In this document: in pieces, positions 1,019 to 63,350 of the stretch
Layout of the letters: every line of letters starts with the position of its first letter
How positions within the stretch are numbered: position 1 is the stretch's first letter
DNA from: Anniella stebbinsi
Lineage: Eukaryota; Chordata; Lepidosauria; Squamata; Anniellidae
Length of the DNA stretch: 64,000 bases
Direction of reading: 5' to 3'
NCBI GenBank assembly: GCA_029215795.1
Contig: JARDYH010000004.1
Span: 218,234,017-218,298,016, forward strand
Notes under the pieces: generated by a model
Databases searched by the model: none
What the model was told of the DNA's origin: nothing
What the model saw: only the letters and a program-made list of their open reading frames with translations
Made by a program: the position numbers and the translations under genes

Positions 1019-1922
1019 CAGATAGGGGGGAAAGCTAATGACCAGCTTAATGTGCTGCAGGTTTATGTGTGGCTTTGATTCTGAGATTCTCTGGTCCTAG
1101 TTTAATACTCTACCCACTACACCACATTGGTGCTTGGCAAATGGGGCCATTTCCTCTGAGATCTGCCATAATCCAGAGATTCATCCTTGCAAGCCACGGA
1201 GACTGTGGCTCCATCGGATTTTGCGCAGAAGTCCAGGGGCCCACTCAGAAAATTGAGTAGGAGGGCCCAAAACCCAGCAGGGCTGGCTCACCACATTTTG
1301 AAGTAAGTAAAATAATACACATTTCCATAAACACAGGGATAGGGACGTAAGAAGAATAAGTTCAGGGTCTAAAATTACCTAACTGCACTATTGCAGGGAG
1401 AATGATCCTGTGCTGCAGATGACAGCTTAGGTGGATGGAGGAGGGTGTTAGGGGGTTGAATTCAGATTAGTCTGGAAATAAGCAGAGTTGTTTTAGGGGA
1501 GAGAGCTCTACTTATCTCCAAGAGGTCTGAGATGGGAAAGAAACTAAGGAGCAGGAAATATGACCTGGGTAGACACATCAATCTGCTGCTTTATTACTGT
1601 TTTGCATCAACACCACTCCACCACCATCATATGTAGTTTCCTCCTAAAGAGCTGCCTGAGCTTCTTTCCTGCTAGAGTTGGTTCCAGCGTAATTAGTAAT
1701 CAGGAGGCTTCTCCATGGAATTATCAAATAAAGCAGTGTGTCCTTTGACAGGCGCTTCTGGCTGGAAGGATTTGAACAGCTGTATGGATAATTAATACAA
1801 ATGAGGAACTGTGTATGAAGATCACAAACCAGCAATGTCTGCTGGAACTCCTCCGGAAGATAGTAAGGAACTTTTTGTTTCAATTATTTTGGGGTGGGAG
1901 AGCTGTTCTTTCCTGTGAAAGC
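1019..1922. other. Mostly unique sequence with a SINE head remnant
   Basis: Positions 1091-1135, read on the minus strand, resemble the head of a Sauria-type SINE ('gtgtagtgggtagagtatt'). The rest, including 1540-1900, shows no recognised repeat and no convincing coding frame. Confidence 0.35.
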
Positions 1923-2235
1923 TAGGGATGAACAAACCTGCCAACGTTAGTTTCTCTACGTTTCTCATTTTCAATCCTTAGTTTGCTCCATCCCATATCT
2001 GCATCAGTTTGCAACTCTTATTTTAAAAGAGCAACTCAGAGTGTTTGAGAAATTTGGGATGGACTAAAATGAGCTCCAATTTCTAAGACTCTGCCCTGTG
2101 GAATCCACTGAGGACTAGCCTCCTCAGGCTGCGTGGAGTCTGTGGACTTGCAGATTTTTTAAAAAAAATCCTGAAATTTACACAAATTTATTCACAGGAT
2201 AATATGCACGTTTCTTCTGAGACCCATGCCATACC
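1923..2235. mobile_element. Possible hAT-like relic
   Basis: The segment begins 'tagggatgaacaaacc', resembling the TAGGG ends of hAT-like elements elsewhere in the window, and contains short self-complementary stretches around the 'gatggactaaaatgagctcc' region. No clear right end or TSD was found, so this is a weak call. Confidence 0.2.
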
Positions 2236-3289
2236 GGAAAAGATGTGTGGGGAAAAATTGAATGGCATTTCTACATTAGGCTTTTATCCTGCAACTTGCG
2301 TGGGGCTTCTGCTTCTGGATTCTTTGCAGGATTAAGATCAGCTCTTTTACATATGCTCTTTCCAGGAGAGTTTCTTTCTCTGCTGTTCTATATGTTTCAT
2401 TATACAGCCTGTAGATGGCACTGTGGGTATTGTGAAATTGCACAATGGTGTGTTTCATAGGTATATTCATTCCAGATATACCAGATTTTCCTTGATCTTT
2501 ATGATCTATTTTTCATATAAATGAATGGCTGCCATGGAGTCCTATGGGGAAAAGTGAAGCGCTGCAGCTGGCAGGTGTTTTCCCAACAGGGTCTGGCCCT
2601 CTTTCCACTGGCAGGAACCCCACCGGCGACAATGTGCTCACAAAGACATTTTCCAACCCATCTTGCGATATACAGGTCCTACACACACACCCCTCTCATT
2701 TTTACTAGTAGGAAAAGAAGATTGCTAGATATCTAAGCTTATGCTCAATTTTTGTTTCTTCCACCCTGTTATTCTGTGACTTAGCACTGTGACACTGTTA
2801 TCAAGCATAGCTGCCCCTACCTGGCCATCAGCCAGGGATACTTTTAAACTGTATCCCAGGAAAGAGTCTTTCATTGCAGAATCCACTGACATTTAAATGG
2901 CATCGTCTATGCGATGGCCTGTAAAACAAAATGCAAAGCAAGCTCACAATTGCATAACAACAGGCAGGTATCTGCTTCTACCAAAAGGCCTGCATTCAAA
3001 GGCTAGGCTGGAAATAGCCAGTTCTTTACATTCTAGGCAGTGCTTTGCATAATCTCCCTATGGAACTGTTTACAAAGGAGTCCTTTAATACCTGTAGCTC
3101 CTATTTTAGGTTTTGGGTGGCCCAGTCTAACTTCCATTGGCTTCCAATTTGATTCCCAGGATGGTCCCTGATTTTAAGTCTTCTGTTTCCCTCCTCAAGC
3201 TGAGGTATAAGCAAAGGGCGCCTGAACACCACTCGGCAGTATGACAGGCAACCATTGCACCTCTTTCTTCAGCTTCCTGTGTTGTTCAC
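2236..3289. other. Unclassified non-coding sequence
   Basis: No repeat family, RNA gene or coding signal was recognised. The open frames here are short and show no protein motif. Confidence 0.35.
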
Positions 3290-3700
3290 CCCTTCCAAGT
3301 GAAGGGTCATAGCTCAGCAGTACAGCACCTGCTCCAGGTAAGGCTACGGTAGGCTCCTGTTTCAACCCAGAAGAGCTTGTGCCAGTCAAAGGGAAAAAGC
3401 AACCCTGATCTCTGAGAGGGGGAAAGTTAAAGCTTCTCTCCTCCCTCAGCAAATCATGTATGTGTGTTTGTGTATGTATTTCTGGTGTGTGAGAATGGAG
3501 AGTGTCTGTGGTGTGTGAGGGAATAGGTGTGAGTTGTTGCTCCACCCATCATCTCTGCTCACTTCCAGGCCCCTGAAGGCTTCCATGGGGGGGTTAATGT
3601 GGCTCTCCAACCCCAAACGTTTGCCTAGCCCTGGATAGCCAATACTGAGCTAGATGTATCAATTCCCTGACTTGATATAAGGCTGCTTCCTATGTTTCTG
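3290..3700 (+). mobile_element. tRNA-derived SINE, plus strand, interrupted
   Basis: At 3308-3370 there is a degenerate tRNA-like head ('tagctcagcagtacagc' then 'ggctcctgtttcaaccc'), followed by the body piece 'agcttgtgccagtcaaagg'. The SINE tail 'atactgagctagatg' and 'ataaggctgcttcctatg' resumes at 3640-3693. About 230 bp of unrelated TG-rich sequence separates the two parts, so this is either one SINE with an insertion or two adjacent fragments. It belongs to the family seen at 853, 17950 and 23655. Confidence 0.55.
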
Positions 3701-4989
3701 TGGATGAGGAGATCAGCTATGTTTCTGTGGATGAGGTGTTTCTGTGAAATAGAGGTGATCAGCTGAGGTGCATCAGGAAATTATCAACACCTTTGTTGCT
3801 GTTTATATAGAGGTAGAGGGAGTTAAAGAGACCTTTGGACGTGAATCAGTGTGTGGGGGCCAACATTCCTGGCTCTTTAGCCCTTGCTCAATTCAGAATA
3901 TGACCGTCTATTAACAATGAGGTGTCGACAAGAGCCCATTTTATGGCTTTGTCAACTGAACCATCTAAAGATGACTCTGGAATGGAATGGGCTAAAAATC
4001 CAATATGTTGAAAGTTTAATGTATTTGTAAAGGGATGAGTAAACTTGAGTGAACATCTTCTGGGATGACAAATCCCCAATTTTGTAATAACATGAGGCTG
4101 TCATTTTGAATAATCACAGGTTTTACAGCCCCTTCCAGCAGTGTTCCCATTGCCTGATACGTCATTGTTCAACTTTGTGATGGGACAAACAAAAGGCCTT
4201 TAAGCTGCTTGCCCACCATTTTGAAGATCTCTGTACACAGTTGTGCATCTCAGAGTCCACGATATACAGTGTGCAAAGGAAGGCCAGAGCTGGGGTTGTG
4301 TATTTACTGAAAACCCAAGCACACGAGCAATTCTTAGTTCCCCAAGTAAAAGAAGAGGAAATATATTTTTTATCCAATCTTAAATATGAACACATTTTAT
4401 TAATGTTTCCCACAGCCAAATGCAATGACTCTGGCAGCATTCTCAGTGTCCCCAAAATAGTCAGTTCCTACTAGGGTTATTCTCCAGCAAAGCAAGGATC
4501 ATGTTTTGTAGTCTTTGACAGTTACAGCCTAGGAAACCAGCTGGTATAAATGCACCATATATACATGCAATTTCATTTATGTACATCACCCCTTTATTAC
4601 CTTTGACTCTCCCAAGTTTCTCCTTCCTCTGGTGGTTCCCCCCTATCGAATATTAGATTGGAATCACCTTGGGGCAGGGACCTGTCTACTTTTCTTTATG
4701 TTACCCTGTAACAGCCTTGTATTTTACAACTCACCTGGTAGCCAAGAATTCCATGCAGGTGAATGGGTGGACTAATGGAGGAGGGATGTATCTCTCCATC
4801 TCTCTTCTGCCAGTTTGCTTGGCTCTATTCTGGCAAATGAAGGAGGGAAATGCATTCCTCAGATCCATCTCTCCTTTGTCACCTAGGTCTGACATTACTG
4901 TTTAGCATCCTCTGGCAGCTGTTGTATTCTCAGTACCCTGACAAGTCCTATGGCCAACACCTGCCTTTGGGCCCCTTTTAATCCCCCCC
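3701..4989. other. Mostly unique sequence with an old LINE-tail-like patch
   Basis: Positions 3693-3745 contain two copies of 'atgtttctgtggatgagg', a short local duplication. Around 4655-4690 the phrase 'accttggggcagggacctgt' resembles a motif I associate with old L2-type 3' untranslated regions, which is a weak call. No coding or RNA gene was recognised. Confidence 0.3.
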
Positions 4990-5405: not shown

Positions 5406-6929
5406 ATCAATTATGTGTTGATCAGCCACCATTTTTACATTTCCTGCAATGCCCCACTTGGTAGAAATGATTTCTTTTTACTAGCTTCCCCTTTTCCATA
5501 ACCAGCATAGAAACACAAGGTACTAGCTTCTTAATAGGCTAGTAAAAATAATAAAAAATAAATTGCAGGCCAGTAACTTTTGTGGATTTATTTATTTATT
5601 TATTTATAAAGCTGCTGTTATGAAAAGATGTAAGAGCTGAGAAATACAATAACTGCCTTGGGAAAGCCCTAGCTTGATGATAGCCCTTCCTTTTGAGGAG
5701 AGCCATTAGCCAGACTGGGTTGGCTGAGTCCCTCCAGAACTTGCCCGTGACAGGTACTGTCATGTAGTTCTGATGGCCCACCACAGAGGGCAGCAGTGTG
5801 CAGGAGCTGTGAGTTCCTCCTGCTTCCAGCACCAAAAACTCCCGACATCTGCTATGTACTGTTAATGATTATTGGTAATAACATTGTTCATAATAACAAA
5901 ATGAGAAACATAATAAATGAGAAATAAATGTTTCATTAAAAAAAAAGGTTATATGGTAAAGCCCTAGTTGTTGCCATCATAACATTCATTTAATCTTGCA
6001 GATAATTAGTTAAAAGCAAGCTATTTTCTCACATAGCTGAAAAAATTATCTATGAGTAATGGCCTCTTTGTTTTCTGTAAGGCACTTTTTCTTTGCAGCA
6101 ATATATGTAAAATGGGGGAAATTATTAGTTTAAGTATTTTATTATTGCCATTTCTTGGAAACAATGTTGTATAATCACTTAGTAGAAAATCAGATAACAT
6201 TGTTACAAACTGTAATACCTATTTGGGCATTTTGCAGATTACGACTATATATATATATATTTTATATCTGAGCTGTACTTCCCGGAGGGCTTAGCTTTAC
6301 CAGCTAAACATGTTAAAAAATTAATGCTGTCTCATTGTCATTAAGCTTTTACACAGTTAACACACAGGTTAATGTTTCATCTTTTATTCTAAGCAAAAAC
6401 TATGAGCAATTATTTATTCTTCTAAGACAGTGTCACTCCAGAGAGATTGCAGACTAGTTTTCAAATGGTAGGAAGGTGTTCCACACCCAGTGGTTTTAAT
6501 ACAAGGGGAGCATATTTACATGCAACCGCCACCTGGAGTTTCAAATGGTAGAGTCCTGGCTGTTCATGTGAAGGACCTATGTCTGGCTTCACCATGTAAC
6601 AACTTCTGGCAGCTGTTGTGTTGACTTGTTGGGGATGCTGGGAGTCAGAGCATGTCCAAGACATTTTGCTGCTTGAGATGAAGAAGCAGCTGACACACCC
6701 TCCAATTCCATCTACAAAAGCTAGCTGGATTGGCAGTTGAATCTTCCTGGCAATGGGACAATGTCTTCCTTTGGTTATTGGGTGAAAATTGGTTATTGGG
6801 TGCATTAGAAATGTAAGAAATACATAAATATGCCTGAAAGCAACAGGCTAGCTTAGGGGGCACACAGCAGCCTGCACAACTTCAATATTTGCTGCCACCT
6901 CTCAATATCTGCCACCTGAGGTGATTGCC
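5406..6929. other. AT-rich unique sequence
   Basis: It contains an (ATTT)n run at 5588-5607 and a (TA)n run at 6246-6261. Positions 5870-6450 are strongly AT-rich with many TAAT and ATTA cores, as in some vertebrate conserved non-coding elements, but conservation cannot be judged here. No coding gene was recognised. Confidence 0.35.
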
Positions 6930-11064: not shown

Positions 11065-11600
11065 TAGGGCTGTGCACAGACCCCCCCCCCCCGATCTGAT
11101 CCGGATCCTGATCTGTCAGGTCTGGTTCGGGCTCGATCTGACTCGGATCGGATCAGATCGGGCCTGATCTTGATCCGTGTACAGCACTCCCTCCTGCTCT
11201 CCCCACTCTCCCCCTCCCTCCCCCACTCTCCCCGCTTACCTGCTGCCTCCTCCGCATTGTCCTTCCGTGGTCCTCTCTCCTCGCTGTATGTCGCCGCATT
11301 TCCCTCTAGCAGCAGATGATGACATAACCCGCCGTGAGCGGGAAATGTGGCGGCACACAGCGAGGTGAGAGGATGACGGGGGACAATGTGAAGGAGGCAG
11401 CAGATAAGCAGGGACAGTGGGAGAGAGCGGGAGAGCAGAAAGGAGTGCTATGATCGTATCCGAATCGGATCCTGATCGCGAATCTGATCCAGCCCGATCT
11501 GGGCCTGATCTGATCTGGTTTGGATCCAGATCCGGGAGGCCCAGATCAGCCCGATCCACTCCGGATTCGGGATCTGGATCCAGATCATTGCACAGCCCTA
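11065..11600. mobile_element. Palindromic hAT-like element with GATC-rich ends
   Basis: The left end TAGGGCTGTGCA and the right end TGCACAGCCCTA are perfect 12-bp inverted repeats. They are flanked by atattagg at 11057-11064 and atattagg at 11601-11608, an exact 8-bp duplication that fits the hAT superfamily. Inside each end are about 80-100 bp rich in GATCTGATCC and GATCCAGATC-like repeats. The core (about 11180-11440) is an imperfect palindrome centred near 11313, in which 'cactctccccgcttacctgc' on the left mirrors purine-rich sequence on the right. No transposase is present, so it needs an enzyme supplied elsewhere. Confidence 0.85.
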
Positions 11601-13535: not shown

Positions 13536-14215
13536 TTATATCCCGCCTTTTGCCCAATGCTGGGCCTCAAGGTGGCTTTACAAAATTAAAACATATACAG
13601 TTAAAAGATATAAATTAGAGAAATACAAAAGTTTAAAATATAACTAAATAGGTTTCAATATTAAAACATTTAAATGTTTAAAATACTTATTAAAATTAAA
13701 AATCTTAAAATATAGATGGGGGTCCACATTATTCTCCAAAGGCCTGCCAGAATAAGTATGTTTTTGTCTGCTTCTGAAAACATATCAAGGAGGGAGCCAG
13801 TCTTGCCTCCCTGGGAAGGGAGTTCCAGAGCACTGGAGCCACCACAGAGAAGGCCCTCTCCTGCATTCTCAGCAGGCATGCCTGTGATGGTGGTGGGGCT
13901 GAGAAAAGGGCCTCTCCTGAAGATCTCAAAGCACAGGCAGGCTTGTAAGGCAGAATATGGTCTTTCAGATAACCTGGACCCAAGCCGTATAGGGCTTTAT
14001 AGGTCATAACCAGCGCTTTGAATTGTGCCCGGAAACAGACCGGAAGCCAGTGGAGCTGTTTTAAAAGAGGAATTGTATGCTCCCTGTAACCAGCTCCGGT
14101 CAGCAATCTGGCTGCAGCTCTTTGAACCAGCTGAAGTTTCCAAACACTCTTTAAAGGCAGCCCCACGTAGAGTGCATTACAGTAATCCAATCGGGATGTA
14201 TGGCCAGGTCAGACC
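13536..14215 (-). pseudogene. 5'-truncated L2-like LINE, C-terminus of ORF2
   Basis: The minus-strand frame at 14190-13729 encodes about 150 residues without a stop. The order of motifs is DYCNALYVGLP, LQLVQRAAARLLTG, LKQLHWLPV, YKALYGLGPGYL, and ERAFSVVAPVLWNSLPRE. This is the region after the catalytic core in Jockey-superfamily LINEs of the L2/CR1 type. The RT active site and the endonuclease are missing through 5' truncation, so the copy is dead. Its 3' untranslated region with 'ccttgaggcccagcattgg' runs to the (ATT)n tail. It is homologous to 21137-22045 and 28050-29250. Confidence 0.85.
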
Positions 14216-15554: not shown

Positions 15555-16110
15555 TACGAGTGTGCATTGAAACTCTGGACAGCGGGGGGAGGGGGGGAGC
15601 TTACCTGGCAGGGTTGTTTGCTTCCATTGGCAGCTGCCAGCGGGCACCCACCGATGGAAACGGACAGCGGGGGCTTACCTGGCGGGGCGTACTCCTACTT
15701 CCATTGCCGGCTCTAAACTACTGCAAACTAGGCCGCGAGGCCTAGTTTGCAGTAGTTTAGAGCTAGCAACAGAAGGAGGACACCCCGCCAGGTAAGGAGC
15801 GGGGGGTGCTTACCTGCTGGGGCTGTCCGCAATGGATGGCCCCGCCAGGTAAGAAGCGTGAGGGGGGAGTTAGGCCCCCCACTCACCCACCCACTGCTAT
15901 GTTTTCCCCATAGACTTGCATAGACTTTCCCCCAATGCAAGTCTATAGCGAAAACAAAAATGGCGGCTGATCCAAAAATTGGACGTCTGATTTTTGGATC
16001 GGGATTGGTCCCGATCCGGGGGGACTCCGATTTTGTCCGATCCAATCTGGGACAAAATTGGAGGTCCTGATCGGGTCCCGATCTGGGGGGGGGGGCCCTG
16101 CACATCCCTA
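15555..16110. mobile_element. Palindromic hAT-like element, degraded left end
   Basis: The right end TGCACATCCCTA at 16099-16110 matches the end of the 3-kb element at 56304-59295. Just inside are GATCGGG and GATCCGG-rich repeats (about 15995-16085). The left end is poor ('tacgagtgtgca' at 15555) and the flanks do not match, so that end is decayed or lost. At the centre, 15711-15734 pairs perfectly with 15739-15762 around a 4-base loop. Wider inverted homology includes 'gcttacctggcggggcg' and 'ccccgccaggtaag'. There is no coding capacity, and the region is GC-rich only because of this element. Confidence 0.6.
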
Positions 16111-21136: not shown

Positions 21137-22045
21137 CCACAACAGGAGACACAACTGAAGCTGAATCCAGACAAGACGGAGGTGCTTGCTGTCAAAGGCC
21201 GCAACCTGGGTTTGGAGGTGTGTCAACCGGTTCTGGATGGGGTTACACTCCCCCTGAAAGACTGTGTTCGCAGCTTGGGGGTGCTCCTGGATCCGTCGCT
21301 CCAAATGACAGCCCAGATAGATGCGACGGCCAGGAGTGCCTACTATCAGCTTCGGCTGATACGCCAGCTGCGCCCCTTCCTAGAGTTGGAAGACCTAAAG
21401 ATGGTAGTGCACGCACTGGTAACTTCGAAGCTCGACTTCTGCAATGCGCTGTACATAGGGCTACCTCTATGCCTAGTCCGGAAACTTCAACTAGTTCAAA
21501 ATATGGCAGCCAGGTTGGTCACCGGTACATCTAGGGGTGACCATATTACGCCAGCTTTAAAATCACTCCACTGGCTGCCAATTAGTTTCCGGGTGAAGTA
21601 TAAAGTGTTGGTTATTACCTTTAAAGCCCTACATGGTTTGGGTCCAGGTTACCTGCGGGATCGCCTTCTCCCATACAATCCGCCCCGCATGCTCAGGTCC
21701 TCTGGGAAAAACTTACTGCAGTCGGCGAAGACTAGGCTGACAACCGTTACCCAGAGGACCTTCTCTTCTGCCGCTCCCAGACTGTGGAATGACCTGCCGG
21801 AGGAGACTCGTCAACTTAACAGTCTTTTAGAATTTAAGAAAGCTATAAAGACTGTTCTCTTCCGGCAGGCATATCCAGTGGAATTTTAGAATGTTTTAAG
21901 GATGTTTTTAGGATGTTTTAGGATTTTTAGGATGTTTTATGCAGTTTTAATAATATGTGTCATGTTTTAATCAGTTTTATGTATTTTATCATGTTGTTGT
22001 TCCCCGCCTCGATCCAGACGGAGAGGCAGGTAAGAAATAAATTGT
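21137..22045 (+). pseudogene. 5'-truncated L2-like LINE, C-terminal RT region
   Basis: The frame is open from about 21137 to the stop at 21889, about 250 codons. It begins with QLKLNPDKTEV, the segment that follows the catalytic YADD-type box in this LINE class. Then come LGVLLDPSLQM, LDFCNALYIGLP, LQLVQNMAARLVTG, LKSLHWLPISFRVKYK, FKALHGLGPGYLRDRL, and RTFSSAAPRLWNDLPEETR. The catalytic residues and the endonuclease are missing because the copy starts too far downstream, so it could not transpose. The frame is intact across the whole remaining length, which suggests a fairly recent insertion. The 3' region (21890-22045) ends 'ggagaggcaggtaagaaata' before a TTG/TTA tail. Confidence 0.9.
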
Positions 22046-35620: not shown

Positions 35621-35718
35621 GATGACATTTTACATCTACCATAAATAGGACCAGCGCTGGAAGGTGACTATCTCATGTGGCAGATGCTAGAAAGTAGAGT
35701 GGGCAAAGGAGACGACAC
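35621..35718. other. Short unclassified spacer
   Basis: No feature was recognised between the two hAT-like elements. Confidence 0.3.
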
Positions 35719-36038
35719 TAGGGTGACCATATGGAAAGGAGGACCAGGCTCCTGTATCATTAACAATTGCATAGAAAGGGGAATTGCAGCTGGTGTCATT
35801 TGTATGCATGCAGCACCTGCTGAAATTCCCTTTTCATTACAACAGTTAAAGCTGCAGGAGCCCTGCCCTCTTTTGTAACTGGTCAAGAGGGCAGAGCTCC
35901 TGCAGCTTTAATTGTTGTGATGAAGAGGGAATTTCACCAGGTGCTGCCTGCATACAAATGACACCTGCTGAAATTCCCTTTTCTATGCAACTGTTAAAGA
36001 TATAGGAGCCCTGTCCTCCTTTCCATATGGTCACCATA
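35719..36038. mobile_element. hAT-like inverted-dimer element, family H, copy 2
   Basis: Ends TAGGGTGACCATATGG and CCATATGGTCACCATA are near-perfect TIRs. Flanks gacgacac (35711-35718) and gacaacac (36039-36046) are an 8-bp duplication with one change. The two arms are inverted copies around 'ttttgtaactggtcaag'. It has no coding capacity. Confidence 0.85.
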
Positions 36039-36322
36039 GACAACACCCGTAGTCATTTCTCCTGAGCCCCCTGGCCATCCCTCTCTGTTGGAGGACAGAA
36101 GTGTACATGATACACAGAATGCCCTGGCTTCTTAAGTTAGCTCACTGCCCTCAGGTTCAGTAGAGGATGCTGTGTTGAACTGAGATTGAATTACCACTCT
36201 GGTTGGCTTCTGCACATCGATTTGGGTGACCTTCGCCTAAGGCTTCCCCAGCCCTAAGCAAAAACCATGGTCTGCCCATGGCCCAGGAGATGGTTCATTT
36301 TTGTCCGCATGCACCTTTTGAC
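36039..36322. other. Unclassified spacer
   Basis: Nothing was recognised between family H copies 2 and 3. Confidence 0.3.
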
Positions 36323-36642
36323 TAGGGTGACCAGATAAAATCCAGGTCAGGGCTCATGTAACTTTAACAGTTGTAGAGAAAAGGGAATTTCAGCCAGTGT
36401 CATTTGTATGCAATTAGTTCCTGGTGAAATTCCCTCTTCATCACAACAGTTAAAGTTGCAGGGGCCCTGCCTTCTTTTGTATATGGTCACTCTAGTATAG
36501 TCCCTGCAACTTTAACTGTTGTGATGAAGAGGGAATTTCACCAGGAATTAATTGCATACAAATGACACTGGCTGAAATTCCCTTTTCTCTACAACTGTTA
36601 AAGTTACATGAGCCCTGACCTGGATTTTATCTGGTCAGCCTA
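36323..36642. mobile_element. hAT-like inverted-dimer element, family H, copy 3
   Basis: Left end TAGGGTGACCAGATAAAATC, right end complement TAGGCTGACCAGATAAAATC. Flanks cttttgac at 36315-36322 and at 36643-36650 make an exact 8-bp duplication. The arms (about 140 bp each) differ at only a few positions. An internal end TGGTCACTCTA near 36484-36494 shows that the left arm is a full shorter monomer and the right arm is an inverted partial copy. It is nearly identical to copy 4 but with the central spacer in the opposite orientation. Confidence 0.92.
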
Positions 36643-37354
36643 CTTTTGACTAAAGCCTGTTTGGGCATGTTTTAGAAATGTGTGGGCTTTCCCTCGCACA
36701 TTTTGTTTTGTTTCGAGAAATGCTTCTCAAACCCAGAAATGTACGGAATCCCGATCGCAAATTGTGTCTGGGTCTGCCATGAAAATGCGAACGCAATAAA
36801 TCTCCTCGCTCATCCCTGAATCAGACCAGACATTTGTTTGCTTCATTCATGTGCCGTTCTTCTTCCCACACCGAAGCTGCTGCAGTAGCTTCCTCTCAGC
36901 AGGAGCCAGGCCCTCCCAGGACACGCATCATCTGCTGTAATTCAGCCTCTGCCATTACTTTTGACCCCAACACATGGCCCTCATCCTATCCCTTCCTCTT
37001 GTGGCTTCCCCCTGTCATTCACTCTTGACCCAGAACAAGCCCCATTCCCGTTACCCCAGCTCTAGGCCTAAGCAAAGCCTCCTGCCCTTTCCTTCCTGCA
37101 GTAGCTGAATACAGCCATCCTTCCTGATTCCATACATTGGCTGCTTTCCCTTCCTTTGAGCTTTGCCCTCCTCTGTTTTCTGGATTGGTTTTTACATGGA
37201 ACTGGACCACTCCCTAGATGAGAGATCTCTAATTTAGGCCTGGATTTAGGCCTGGACTCCGTTTTATCCAGCTTTTCCTAGACCACAAGCCCCACCTCTG
37301 ACAATGTTCAGAGGCAGGATGCTTCCAGATACTTTATTACCTGTGCCTTAAACT
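36643..37354. other. Unclassified sequence
   Basis: Pyrimidine-rich with several short open frames. No repeat or gene was recognised. Confidence 0.3.
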
Positions 37355-37934
37355 GGGACATCATCTACTCCAAGCAGGATATTAAATTAGGGTGACCAGA
37401 TAAAATCCAGGTCAGGGCTCATGTAACTTTAACAGTTGTAGAGAAAAGGGAATTTCAGCCAGTGTCATTTGTATGTAATTAGTTCCTGGTGAAATTCCCT
37501 CTTCCTCACAACTGTTAAAGGTGCATGCACTATACTAGAGTGACCAGATACAAAAGAAGGCAGGGCCCCTGCAACTTTAACTGTTGTGATGAAGAGGGAA
37601 TTTCACCAGGAACTAATTGCATACAAATGACACTGGCTGAAATTCCCTTTTCTCTACAACTGTTAAAGTTACATGAGCCCTGACCTGGATTTTATCTGGT
37701 CAGCCTAGGATATTGCACTTTGAAAGTGGTATGAAAATGGTATATAAAAGGCAGAAGCCACACCAAGCAGGCTATAGCAGTGTAAAAGCGGTATATGTGG
37801 TATGTGTCAATGGGCCCCAACAGTTGTCAGTGCACTTCAATACTGCTATAAAGCAGTAGTGTGGCTCCTGCCTTTTATATACCGCTTTCATACCACTTTC
37901 ATAGGGCAATATCCTGTTTGGTGTAGATGAGGCC
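37355..37934. mobile_element. MITE family I, interrupted by a family H element
   Basis: The right end GGTGTAGATGAGGCC and the left start GGGACATCATCTACTCC are inverted repeats. Both sides contain 'caggatatt', and the body has paired 'aagtggtatgaaaatgg' and 'accgctttcataccactttc' as well as paired 'ggcagaagccacacc' and 'gtggctcctgcc'. Removing the family H element at 37388-37707 restores a continuous hairpin, so that element landed inside this one. The flanks show no exact 3-bp TSD. Related fragments lie at 43393 and 50325. Confidence 0.65.
37388..37707. mobile_element. hAT-like inverted-dimer element, family H, copy 4
   Basis: Its ends are the same as copy 3, including the shared CAGCCTA variant at the right end. 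The right flank is ggatattg (37708-37715) and the left flank contains ggatatta three bases from the end, a slightly altered 8-bp duplication. The arms are near-identical to copy 3. The internal end 'tagagtgaccagatac' (about 37535) lies on the other side of the centre from copy 3. Confidence 0.85.
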
Positions 37935-56295: not shown

Positions 56296-56491
56296 GTTCA
56301 TTTTAGGGGTGTGCATCGGATCGGATCCGATCCACGATCCGAATCCGATCCGACCCAAAATCGGGAAAATCCGATCCGATCCGATCCGATCCGGACAACC
56401 TCCGATCCGATCCGATCCGATGAGGTCCGATCCGGATCGGACGCCATTTTGAATGCTTTTTCCCATAGCCAAGTATTGTTTTACAAAAATG

Positions 56492-57545
56492 CCTATAACT
56501 TTTTTATTTTTAAAGATAGAAGGATGAAACTTGGGCACATTGTAGACTTGTTAGGGGTAGTTATCTGTGAGAAATTTCAGAAAGATTGGTGCATGCATTT
56601 TGTGGCAATTAATTTTTTAATAAATACCCAGGAATGCCTATAACTTTGTCATTTTTAAAGTTACACACATGAAACTTTGCCACATTGTAGGGGGTACCTT
56701 GGGACCTATGTGTGTGAAATTTCAGAAACGTAGGTGCTTGTCTTGTGTGGCAATTAATTTTTAGAAAAATGGGTAGTAGTGGGGTAAATACAGTTACGCC
56801 TCCCATTTTTTTATTTTTGAAGATACAAACAGGAAACTTGGGCACATTACAGGTACCACTTGCCTTGATATGTGTGTGAAATTTCAGAAACATTGGAGAT
56901 TTCCTTGTGTGGCAATTAATTTTTGAAACAATGAGGAAAGAAACACCTATAACTTTGTCATTTTTAAAGTTACACACATGAAACTTTGCCACATTGTAGG
57001 TGGTACCTTGGGACCTATGTGTGTGAAATTTCAGAAACATAGGTGCTTGCCTTGTGTGGCAATTAATTTTTTAATAAATACCCAGGAATGCCTATAACTT
57101 TGTCATTTTTAAAGTTACACACATGAAACTTTGCCACATTGTAGGCGGTACCTTGGGACCTATGTGTGTGAAATTTCGGAAACGTAGGTGCTTGCCTTGT
57201 GTGGCAATTAATTTTAGAAAAATGGGTAGTGGTGGGGTAAATACAGTTACGCCTCCCACTTTTTTATTTTTGAAGATACAAACAGGAAACATGGGCACAT
57301 TACAGGTACCACTTGGCTTGATATGTGTGTAAAATTTCAGACAGCTGGGTCCAGGCATGTGGTGGCAAGGTATTTTTGAAACAATGAGGAAAGAAACGCC
57401 TATAACTTTTTTATTTTAAAAGTTAGAAGTCTGAACATTGCTCACTTTGTAGATGGGTTAGGGGTAGATATGTGTCAGAAATTTCAGAATTATAGGTCCA
57501 GGCATTTGATGGCTATGGAATTTTTAAATTACATGTTTCAAAAAA
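56492..57545 (+). repeat. Seven tandem 145-162 bp units, left arm
   Basis: Units start with 'cctataacttt' or the 'cctcccatttttttattt' variant at 56492, 56637, 56799, 56946, 57091, 57252 and 57399. A unit has 'ttttttatttttaaagat' or 'gtcatttttaaagttac', 'gaaacttgggcacatt', 'gtgtgaaatttcagaaa' and 'gtggcaattaattttt'. Spacings alternate 145, 162, 147, 145, 161, 147, so three consecutive units form a higher-order block that is itself repeated. Confidence 0.85.
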
Positions 57546-57610
57546 ATTTCTACAGAGGCCAGGTCTTCCCCTCCCGCTTCCCGCGAAGAAAAGGAAACAC
57601 TCTCTCGTCT

Positions 57611-57794
57611 CGATCCCTTTGATCCTTGCTAGTAGTATCCATTACAGGGCTCGTGTTTCCTTTCCTACTTTCACTTTTCAAGCAGAACGGCTGAGCCTAG
57701 CTGAGTTTTGCAGCCATGCGTGCAAGGAAGGATCACTCTGGTCTCGATCCCTTTGATCCTTGCTAGTAGTATCCATTACAGGGCTCGTGTCTGC
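57611..57794. repeat. Direct repeat near the palindrome centre
   Basis: 'gtctcgatccctttgatcc' then 'ttgctagtagtatccattac' and 'agggctcgtgt' occur at about 57607-57655 and again at about 57740-57790, and so appear as a mirrored pair in the right arm. The intervening sequence includes 'agcagaacggctgagcctag'. Confidence 0.75.
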
Positions 57795-58059
57795 TTTCAC
57801 TTTGTACTCAAGCAGACACGAGCCCTGTAATGGATACTACTAGCAAGGATCAAAGGGATCGAGACCAGAGTGATCCTTCCTTGCACGCATGGCTGCAAAA
57901 CTCAGCTAGGCTCAGCCGTTCTGCTTGAAAAGTGAAAGTAGGAAAGGAAACACGAGCCCTGTAATGGATACTACTAGCAAGGATCAAAGGGATCGAGACG
58001 AGAGAGTGTTTCCTTTTCTTCGCGGGAAGCGGGAGGGGAAGACCTGGCCTCTGTAGAAA

Positions 58060-59115
58060 TTTTTTTGAAACATGTAATTTAAAAATTCCATAGCCATCAA
58101 ATGCCTGGACCTATAATTCTGAAATTTCTGACACATATCTACCCCTAACCCATCTACAAAGTGAGCAATGTTCAGACTTCTAACTTTTAAAATAAAAAAG
58201 TTATAGGCGTTTCTTTCCTCATTGTTTCAAAAATACCTTGCCACCACATGCCTGGACCCAGCTGTCTGAAATTTTACACACATATCAAGCCAAGTGGTAC
58301 CTGTAATGTGCCCATGTTTCCTGTTTGTATCTTCAAAAATAAAAAAGTGGGAGGCGTAACTGTATTTACCCCACCACTACCCATTTTTCTAAAATTAATT
58401 GCCACACAAGGCAAGCACCTACGTTTCCGAAATTTCACACACATAGGTCCCAAGGTACCGCCTACAATGTGGCAAAGTTTCATGTGTGTAACTTTAAAAA
58501 TGACAAAGTTATAGGCATTCCTGGGTATTTATTAAAAAATTAATTGCCACACAAGGCAAGCACCTATGTTTCTGAAATTTCACACACATAGGTCCCAAGG
58601 TACCACCTACAATGTGGCAAAGTTTCATGTGTGTAACTTTAAAAATGACAAAGTTATAGGTGTTTCTTTCCTCATTGTTTCAAAAATTAATTGCCACACA
58701 AGGAAAGCTCCAATGTTTCTGAAATTTCACACACATATCAAGGCAAGTGGTACCTGTAATGTGCCCAAGTTTCCTGTTTGTATATTCAAAAATAAAAAAA
58801 TGGGAGGCGTAACTGTATTTACCCCACTACTACCCATTTTTCTAAAAATTAATTGCCACACAAGACAAGCACCTACGTTTCTGAAATTTCACACACATAG
58901 GTCCCAAGGTACCCCCTACAACGTGGCAAAGTTTCATGTGTGTAACTTTAAAAATGACAAAGTTATAGGCATTCCTGGGTATTTATTAAAAAATTAATTG
59001 CCACAAAATGCATGCACCAATCTTTCTGAAATTTCTCACAGATAACTACCCCTAACCAGTCTACAATGTGCCCAAGTTTCATCCTTCTATCTTTAAAAAT
59101 GAAAAAGTTATAGGC
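58060..59115 (-). repeat. Seven tandem 145-162 bp units, right arm
   Basis: The mirror image of the left-arm array, with the same unit order. A 120-bp comparison around 58677 against the left arm showed two differences. The minus-strand reading of this arm equals the plus-strand reading of the left arm. Confidence 0.85.
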
Positions 59116-59339
59116 GTTTTTGTAAAACAATACTTGGCTATGGGAAAAAGCATTCAAAATGGCGTCCGATCCGGATCGGACATCTGGTCCGATCCGATCC
59201 GACCAGCCTCCGATCCGATCCGATCCGATCCGACCCCCCAGGTCCGATTCCGATCCGCTATCCGATCCGATCCGGGGGGTCAGTGCACATCCCTAGTTCA
59301 TTTGATTATGGCTGCTGATCATTAATTTTCATATCAATT

Positions 59340-61478: not shown

Positions 61479-61860
61479 ATTCATTAAACAAAAAACCTAC
61501 GGTTAACAAAAACAATGTTAAGGCTCCAGTTTCCAACCACCAAAAAGCAGGGAAATTGGGAGTTAAGGCTCCCAAGCCTTACGCCACATCCTCCCTAAGG
61601 AGGCAGAAAGTGCAAGTGAAATTCTCATTCTCCCAAAGCAGATAAACCATGAGGACAGGATGGAGAATATGATATGCAGAGGTGACTGTGGGGTTGTGGA
61701 AAACTGATAACGAACAACTTAGGGCCACCTACTTCTCTTTTTTTGTTTAGAGCAGCCCTTCCCCAACCTGGTGCCCTCCAAAGGTGTTGGACTACAACTC
61801 CCATCATTGCAAGTCAATATGTCCCATGGTCAGGAATGCTGGGACTTGTCATCTCAAAAA
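61479..61860. repeat. Left arm of an inverted duplication
   Basis: It runs from 'attcattaaacaaaaaacct' to 'acttgtcatctcaaa' and is the inverted copy of 62962-63350, about 95% alike by eye, over about 385 bp. It includes an embedded family E hairpin arm (61746-61857). The other arm differs by small indels such as 'ccagtttcc' against 'ccacagtttcc'. Confidence 0.85.
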
Positions 61861-62961: not shown

Positions 62962-63350
62962 GTTTGAGATGACAAGTCCCAGCATTCTTGACCATGGGAC
63001 ATACTGACTTGCAATGATGGAAGTTGTAGTCCAACACCTTTGGAGGGCACCAGGTTGGGGAAGGGCTGCTCTAAACAAAAAAAGAGAAGTAGGTGGCCCT
63101 AAGTTGTTCGTGATCAGTTTTCCACAACCCCACAGTCACCTCTGCATATCATATTCTCCATCCTGTCCTCATGGTTTATCTGCTTTGGGAGAATGAGAAT
63201 TTCACTTGCACTTTCTGCCTCCTTAGGGAGGATGTGGCGTTAAGGCTTGGGAGCCTTAACTCCCAATTTCCCTGCTTTTTGGTGGTTGGTTGGAAACTGT
63301 GGAGCCTTAACATTGTTTTTGTAAACCGTAGGTTTTTTGTTTAATGAATA
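62962..63350. repeat. Right arm of an inverted duplication
   Basis: The inverted copy of 61479-61860. Both ends of the homology are sharp: 'gatgacaagtcccagc' inside and 'tttgtttaatgaat' outside. No TIR-type end or flanking direct repeat was seen. Confidence 0.85.

Follow-up and report, generated by a model that had tools for sequence, protein, structure and literature searches.

A 3-kb near-perfect palindrome from Anniella stebbinsi is probably a non-autonomous foldback hAT element mobilized by an 11-kb relative

Architecture of the palindromic element

The window analysed here is a stretch of 64,000 nucleotides from the genome of Anniella stebbinsi (GenBank assembly GCA_029215795.1, contig JARDYH010000004.1, positions 218,234,017 to 218,298,016). 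It contains an element of 2992 bp (56304-59295) that is bounded by the 12-bp termini TAGGGRTGTGCA and is composed, for 2744 of its 2992 bp, of two long inverted arms. The features of this element are listed here, with coordinates given as positions in the window.

56296..56303, no strand: target-site duplication, left copy GTTCATTT, an exact match to 59296-59303
56304..56315, + strand: left terminal inverted repeat TAGGGGTGTGCA; the first 49 bp of the element equal the end of an 11-kb relative
56316..56424, + strand: left subterminal CCGATCC repeats, without a mirror counterpart in the right end
56425..57796, + strand: left palindrome arm, 1372 bp, the outer ~1.1 kb made of degenerate ~145-bp tandem units with a 454-bp higher-order period
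57560..57796, + strand: inner module of the left arm, which includes 2 copies of a ~61-bp unit
57797..57809, no strand: 13-nt loop TCACTTTGTACTC, the palindrome centre
57810..59181, - strand: right palindrome arm, 1372 bp, 6 substitutions relative to the left arm
59182..59283, - strand: right subterminal CGGAT repeats; the first 85 bp of the right end equal the 11-kb relative
59284..59295, - strand: right terminal inverted repeat TAGGGATGTGCA
59296..59303, no strand: target-site duplication, right copy GTTCATTT, exact

An earlier reading of these letters, made without database searches (the sequence-only reading), had described matched ends, an exact 8-bp duplication on both sides and near-perfect arms of about 1.37 kb. 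Our measurements agree: the termini are TAGGGGTGTGCA and TAGGGATGTGCA, GTTCATTT is present without mismatch on each side, and alignment of the two 1372-bp arms reveals 6 substitutions and no indels. The left-arm sites of these substitutions are 56490, 56505, 56549, 56684, 56822 and 56899, and all six therefore fall within the outer ~475 bp of the arm. The loop, which had been given as 15 bases at 57796-57810, is 13 nt long and occupies 57797-57809. The description of the whole 3 kb as a near-perfect palindrome is correct for the arms but not for the outermost ~110-120 bp at each end. These are the subterminal CCGATCC and CGGAT repeats, and because they are not mirror images of one another the near-perfect palindrome ends before the 12-bp termini are reached. 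Within each arm the inner 237 bp include the ~61-bp unit in two copies, and the greater part of the arm is a degenerate tandem array, with periods of ~145 and 454 bp. Used as a query against the genome, the inner module (57560-57796) gave no match, its own position in the window included. Two mirrored 143-aa open frames are located in the arms, where they sit inside the tandem units.

When the central 999 nt were folded as RNA, a single unbroken hairpin was predicted around the 13-nt loop, with an energy of -976 kcal/mol. Shuffled versions of this sequence gave a mean of -266 kcal/mol (n=20), and nothing comparable to the hairpin is expected by chance. If it were transcribed, the element would yield long double-stranded RNA. 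Inspection of the terminal 12-mer is less informative. With up to 2 mismatches allowed it occurs 10 times in the window, compared with a shuffle mean of 11.4, and since the 12-mer alone is not enriched the case rests on the exact pair of ends, the duplication and the copies elsewhere. No match was found in Rfam at gathering scores within the window, and neither the window nor 20 loci that carry copies of the family exhibit similarity to the transposase of the 11-kb relative at E 0.01.

The palindrome family and its target sites

The genome, comprising 1.89 Gb in 91 contigs, was searched with a query of 1101 bp taken from the arm. This search gave 46 rows, from the best 40 of 73 candidates scored, and among these were at least 12 full-length arm matches at 99-100% identity, distributed over 6 contigs and including the window. 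We then read 20 loci, which are the best-scoring ones and not a random sample. An exact 8-bp duplication surrounds a family member in 18 of the 20, and all 18 duplications differ. The two exceptions are L031, which retains one arm only, and L039, the second end of which is outside the stretch read at that locus. Together with the window, the 11-kb relative and three small relatives, the 18 copies provide a set of 23 duplications and, when these are read on both strands, 46 readings. T is present at position 2 in 37 of the 46 and A at position 7 likewise in 37, a pattern that corresponds to nTnnnnAn, the target preference of hAT elements.

For one copy, at L028, a related empty site could be identified. 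When its flanks are joined across the element, they can be aligned with a diverged copy of a repeat in L027, with 189 of 254 columns identical (74%) and 12 gap columns, none of them at the junction. The 8-bp target of L028 is present once in this empty repeat, with 5 of the 8 bases matching. Among the sequences fetched, a related empty site was found for no other copy. The sequence-only reading had proposed that a very long hairpin was mobilized as a unit, had recommended a search of the source genome for further copies and had considered that the lack of any other copy and of any empty site would weaken this idea. Copies were found, as was one related empty site, and the distinct exact duplications and the base preference within them likewise speak in its favour. 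These sequence comparisons support transposition of the palindrome as a unit.

Two arrangements at these loci may be recorded separately. At L028, two members of the palindromic family (1-1081 and 1272-4231) are separated by 190 bp. At L034, the element at 1633-4747 possesses both ends and an exact duplication and has almost no inverted arms, the arm units being present as direct repeats.

State of the palindrome centre

The 12 best palindromic copies were classified according to the state of their centres. Five are intact, five have one-sided deletions of the centre, one has lost an arm and one has a rearranged arm. The intact copies, each with a 13-nt loop, are those of the window, L021, L025, L026 and L028, and in L024 an intact loop is accompanied by a rearranged right arm. 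The one-sided centre losses of L022 and L030 differ from each other. L023, L027 and L029 have one deletion in common, in which two TTTCACTTT repeats have been joined and ~116 bp of the left arm lost; L027 additionally lacks part of its right arm. Judging from the shared junction, this deletion may be a single inherited event, and on that account there would be about four independent centre events, L031 included. At L031 one arm and the loop remain, with just 2 nt of the second arm before other DNA begins. Instability of the hairpin had been anticipated in the sequence-only reading, and the one-sided deletions seen in five of these 12 copies, plus an arm lost from the loop, are in keeping with that expectation. 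Breaks that start at the tip of the hairpin would be expected to leave such a pattern, and the centre looks like the weak point of the palindrome.

The loop sequence is identical in four of the five intact copies and in the fifth, L025, the same loop is inverted. In two more diverged members, L033 and L040, the same stem encloses a longer loop. These observations bear on two alternative accounts of the palindrome. According to the first, it is an artefact of sequencing or assembly, in which a doubled-back read was assembled as a palindrome. Long-read libraries are known to yield fold-back chimeric reads, and their occurrence gives this account some a priori force. It would nevertheless have to explain why the near-perfect mirror stops in unequal subterminal repeats instead of running into the flanks, why the arms differ at 6 sites, why the same palindrome recurs at other loci, each with its own duplication, and why one loop sequence is held in common by four of five intact copies and is inverted in the fifth. 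We regard an artefact as extremely improbable. In the second account the palindromes were formed in place, by inverted duplication of a resident one-armed element, and the flanking duplication is left from an older insertion. L031, which is one-armed and broken at the loop, might be seen as such a resident, but the loop and the 2 nt of the other arm that it retains are more readily explained by loss from a palindrome than by a precursor state. Moreover, four of the five intact copies share both the loop and its orientation, and the remaining copy has the same loop inverted. Independent formation is disfavoured because the same 13-nt centre would not recur, and we consider formation in place to be highly improbable.

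The inverted sequences TCTGCTT and AAGCAGA, with 13 nt between them, are located at the very centre of the palindrome. This short inverted repeat supports, but does not show, an origin by fold-back, which we infer from the shape of the centre and not from an observed one-armed ancestor; the non-palindromic L034 cannot be placed before or after the palindrome. A template-switching model has been put forward for the acquisition of sequence by animal DNA transposons (PMC8277862), and was weighed as an explanation for the origin. As far as the available text of that paper goes, the model does not itself predict a palindrome.

An 11-kb relative with an open transposase frame

The genome was also searched with the profile of the hAT dimerisation domain (PF05699), and 150 matches were scored out of 1498 candidates. 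Among 149 of these best 150, at least 103 belong to open frames of 840 aa or more. Among the matches listed, most of these long frames are on contig C1 and most have an equal domain score; the number in the whole genome is likely to be higher. One copy was read whole (C1:104376807-104387940). It is 11,134 bp in length, is flanked by the duplication GTGAAAAG and contains an open frame of 867 codons, with the first methionine at residue 25 and hence a product of 843 aa. In this frame both zf-BED (PF02892) and Dimer_Tnp_hAT (PF05699) score above cut-off. The element also has inverted arms of ~1.1 kb, built of 147- and 162-bp units, that are 98.5-99.2% alike depending on how gaps are scored. Over 2043 bp of the frame, six other copies were compared with this one; the identity is 99.8-99.95% for five of them and 98.2% for the sixth. 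When the ends were sought in three further 11-kb copies, both were present in the stretch read for one of them and a single end for the other two. The second relative with two ends measures 10,705 bp, has the duplication ATAAATAG and has arms that are 98.9% alike over 1131 bp. In the diverged hAT copies L041 and L044, a single TAGGGATGTGCA end is present in each, along with repeat units of the same type. An autonomous 11-kb hAT has likely undergone a very recent burst, and from these identities it appears likely that this family, which shares its ends with the palindrome and has open transposase frames, was amplified very recently. The presence of long transposase frames at high copy number likewise makes it likely that this hAT was recently, or is still, active.

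At E 0.01 the only PDB entries matched by the transposase of the relative are 2bw3, 4d1q, 6dww and 8edg, which we take to be Hermes-type hAT transposases, although 2bw3 and 4d1q are titled simply 'transposase'. The matches, at ~1e-12, are confined to residues 789-851, and the rest of the 867-residue frame is without alignment. BED domains bind the left end of Hermes, according to the available part of the report (PMC10368747), and by analogy the tandem arms might be arrays of transposase-binding sites.

The termini of the window element are identical to those of the 11,134-bp relative over 49 bp on the left and 85 bp on the right. Since the two have these ends in common, we infer that the 11-kb transposase would recognise them and move the palindrome, and the 11-kb relative is likely to be the autonomous partner of the palindrome family. 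A different hAT subfamily, one that was not sampled here, might instead have moved the palindrome, with the 11-kb family sharing its ends by descent only. Several observations are compatible with this alternative. Many other hAT copies are present in the genome, and beyond the ends the resemblance between the palindrome and the 11-kb relative is just ~78-90%. The outer ~600 bp are 88.6-90% alike (88.6% for 56304-56888) and looser scoring gives 77.7% over 956 bp. The inner module (57560-57796) was not found in the one full 11-kb copy read. In addition, the right end of most older copies departs from that of the 11-kb family. In a group of eight copies that are older or rearranged, 7 match the relative exactly over the left 49 bp, although only 2 do so over the right 84 bp, where five others have 2-3 mismatches and one has 23. 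In contrast, among 11 young two-ended copies the left 49 bp match the relative exactly in 10 and the right 84 bp in 9, and long open frames in many copies are a feature of the 11-kb family. Because the end matches are weaker in the older copies, the argument for this helper is strongest for the young ones. On balance we regard a different helper as rather unlikely, and we consider it likely that the window element is a non-autonomous foldback hAT that was inserted as a single 2992-bp palindrome and mobilized by the transposase of the high-copy 11-kb relative.

Why the arms are alike

A priori, the high identity of the two arms might reflect either recent origin or conversion of one arm by the other, and the sequence-only reading had left the choice between these open. 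Recency accounts for most of the identity and conversion for a minor part of it. In the five intact copies the arms of a single copy differ on average by 0.54%, and the arms of different copies by 0.58% when they are on the same side or 0.60% when on opposite sides. If each copy were correcting its own arms, the true pairing of arms should stand out among all the ways in which the ten arms can be paired. For the inner half of the arms, all 945 pairings give 7 differences. For the outer half the true pairing gives 30 differences, compared with a mean of 33, and is equalled or undercut by 20% of the pairings. Recency therefore explains most of the arm identity, because the difference within copies is close to that between copies and there is no pairing signal in the inner half.

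Arm-to-arm exchange was surveyed in an alignment of 15 elements. In L029 a private A at 57607 and a nearby T insertion are present in both arms, and L032 and L037 have, respectively, two and three private sites of this kind. Another, at 57491 in L024, is inside the rearranged arm and was given no weight. A CTA insertion near the centre is found in both arms of the window copy and only in the left arm of L025 and L037. The variant at 56549 is in the left arm of five copies, in the right arm of three and in neither arm of three. These markers, together with the inverted loop of L025, are what would be predicted if the arms were kept alike mainly by ongoing gene conversion within each copy, as in the palindromes of sex chromosomes, and not by recency. 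Such a mechanism is difficult to reconcile with the near equality of the within-copy and between-copy differences, with the failure of the 945 pairings to distinguish the true one in the inner half, and with the state of the more diverged L037, the arms of which are only 91.7-94.6% alike. Conversion as the main cause is thus unlikely. These comparisons suggest that the high arm identity is mostly due to recency and that exchange between the arms occurs as a minor contribution; some of the exchanges may predate insertion and have taken place in source copies.

The absence of arm differences near the centre of the window element might have been attributed to conversion that begins at the hairpin tip. 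This idea was rejected, since the inner half is equally uniform between different intact copies.

Proposed history of the family and comparison with known systems

We propose the following sequence of events. In an ancestor, a broken or stalled strand would have folded back on the central inverted repeat CTGCTT...AAGCAG and would have copied one arm to produce the palindrome, the two arms then spreading together as a unit. The transposase of the 11-kb relative would cut and paste the palindrome by way of the common ends. One-sided centre deletions would convert intact palindromes to asymmetric ones, and fresh transposition of intact copies is likely to keep the palindromic form alive. Exchange between the arms has swapped markers, flipped the loop in some copies and left occasional conversion tracts. 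A more ambitious reading, which we advance tentatively and would not yet favour, is that this hAT lineage has the long hairpin as a lasting form. Full-length elements with an open transposase frame and reduced palindromes would both keep kilobase inverted arms, while in the palindromes centres would break in the germ line, interiors would swap or flip between the arms and transposition would outrun decay. If this were true, one genome would contain a graded series of palindrome birth, isomerisation and collapse.

Several features used to define hAT elements are found here: an 8-bp duplication, the nTnnnnAn preference, short terminal inverted repeats accompanied by subterminal repeats (12-bp ends and CCGATCC arrays) and, in the 11-kb candidate helper, a BED zinc finger and a dimerisation region. 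Those that define foldback elements, namely a body composed mostly of long inverted arms with tandem repeats and dispersed copies, are found as well. MITEs are short, usually under about 0.6 kb, and the window element at 2992 bp exceeds that length. Long inverted arms are also characteristic of the Foldback (FB) elements of Drosophila and of SoFT in tomato.

Three published systems invite comparison, each according to the available text of its report. In Atlantic cod, gadMor-hAT-1784 and gadMor-hAT-8043 are likewise hAT-derived, lack transposase and have two long inverted arms (PMC12368964). The cod arms are made of 167-169-bp tandem units, and the consensus is described as palindromic. Those arms extend for ~600 bp, whereas the arms here are 1372 bp long, differ at 6 sites and enclose a loop of 13 nt. 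The present family is further distinguished by exact 8-bp duplications and by a same-ended relative with a long transposase frame, and its likeness to the cod elements is one of structure. Galileo, in Drosophila (see also PMC3688188), has long inverted arms that in some copies are extended by internal tandem repeats (PMC4168063). As here, near-complete elements coexist with arm-only derivatives, but the transposase places Galileo in the P superfamily and not in hAT (PMC4168063). Tetris, in Drosophila virilis, is a foldback with ~220-bp tandem repeats within its arms, is apparently non-autonomous and has ends in common with a smaller element (PMC4079207). That report, from another host, describes no autonomous partner in its available text, and this likeness is again structural. 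Among the literature matches listed, judged by title and the start of the abstract, there was no foldback hAT of a reptile or other amniote. Relative to the literature searched, three things appear to be new: how large and how perfect the palindrome is, the same-ended relative whose transposase frame is open, and the range of centre states among the copies.

Instability is expected of long near-perfect palindromes, and since most of them are one of a kind their fate in a normal germ line is difficult to follow. Here one young family provides many near-identical insertions with intact, partly deleted or one-armed centres, so that natural copies can reveal breakpoints and, once relatives are compared, the rates at which palindromes decay.

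Other elements with similar ends

The window contains an older foldback of 536 bp at 11065-11600, with TAGGGCTGTGCA ends and the exact 8-bp duplication ATATTAGG, in which 85% of the length is in inverted arms that are ~70% alike. This element, the likely autonomous partner and the tandem make-up of the arms are absent from the sequence-only reading. Elsewhere, among elements that combine this type of end with other interiors, L033 (281-2331) is a foldback with 92% of its length in inverted pairs, and L031 (5049-6279) is a foldback with 77% in inverted pairs and a duplication with one mismatch. Elements with this end type that are weakly foldback were found at 15555-16110 of the window (38%), in L034 (23%) and in L039 at 6087-6598 (13%). 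The foldback build is common, and not universal, in the clade with such ends.

Some smaller repeats in the window are also worth recording. The element-like stretch at 15555-16110 is bounded by TACGAGTGTGCA and TAGGGATGTGCA, contains a small palindrome at its centre (15674-15796) and lacks a clear duplication. Three palindromic elements of ~325 bp with TAGGGTGACCAGAT-type ends are present at 35718-36039, 36322-36646 and 37384-37708; by eye, the 8-bp duplication has one mismatch for the first and is exact for the second. Part of this ~325-bp repeat is also found inside the 11-kb relative, at 91%. An inverted pair of ~387 bp, 97% alike and with 1.1 kb between its members, occupies 61479-61858 and 62963-63349. 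Finally, frames at 13729-14190 (- strand) and 21182-21889 (+ strand), for which there was no Pfam match, resemble by eye the end of a LINE reverse transcriptase.
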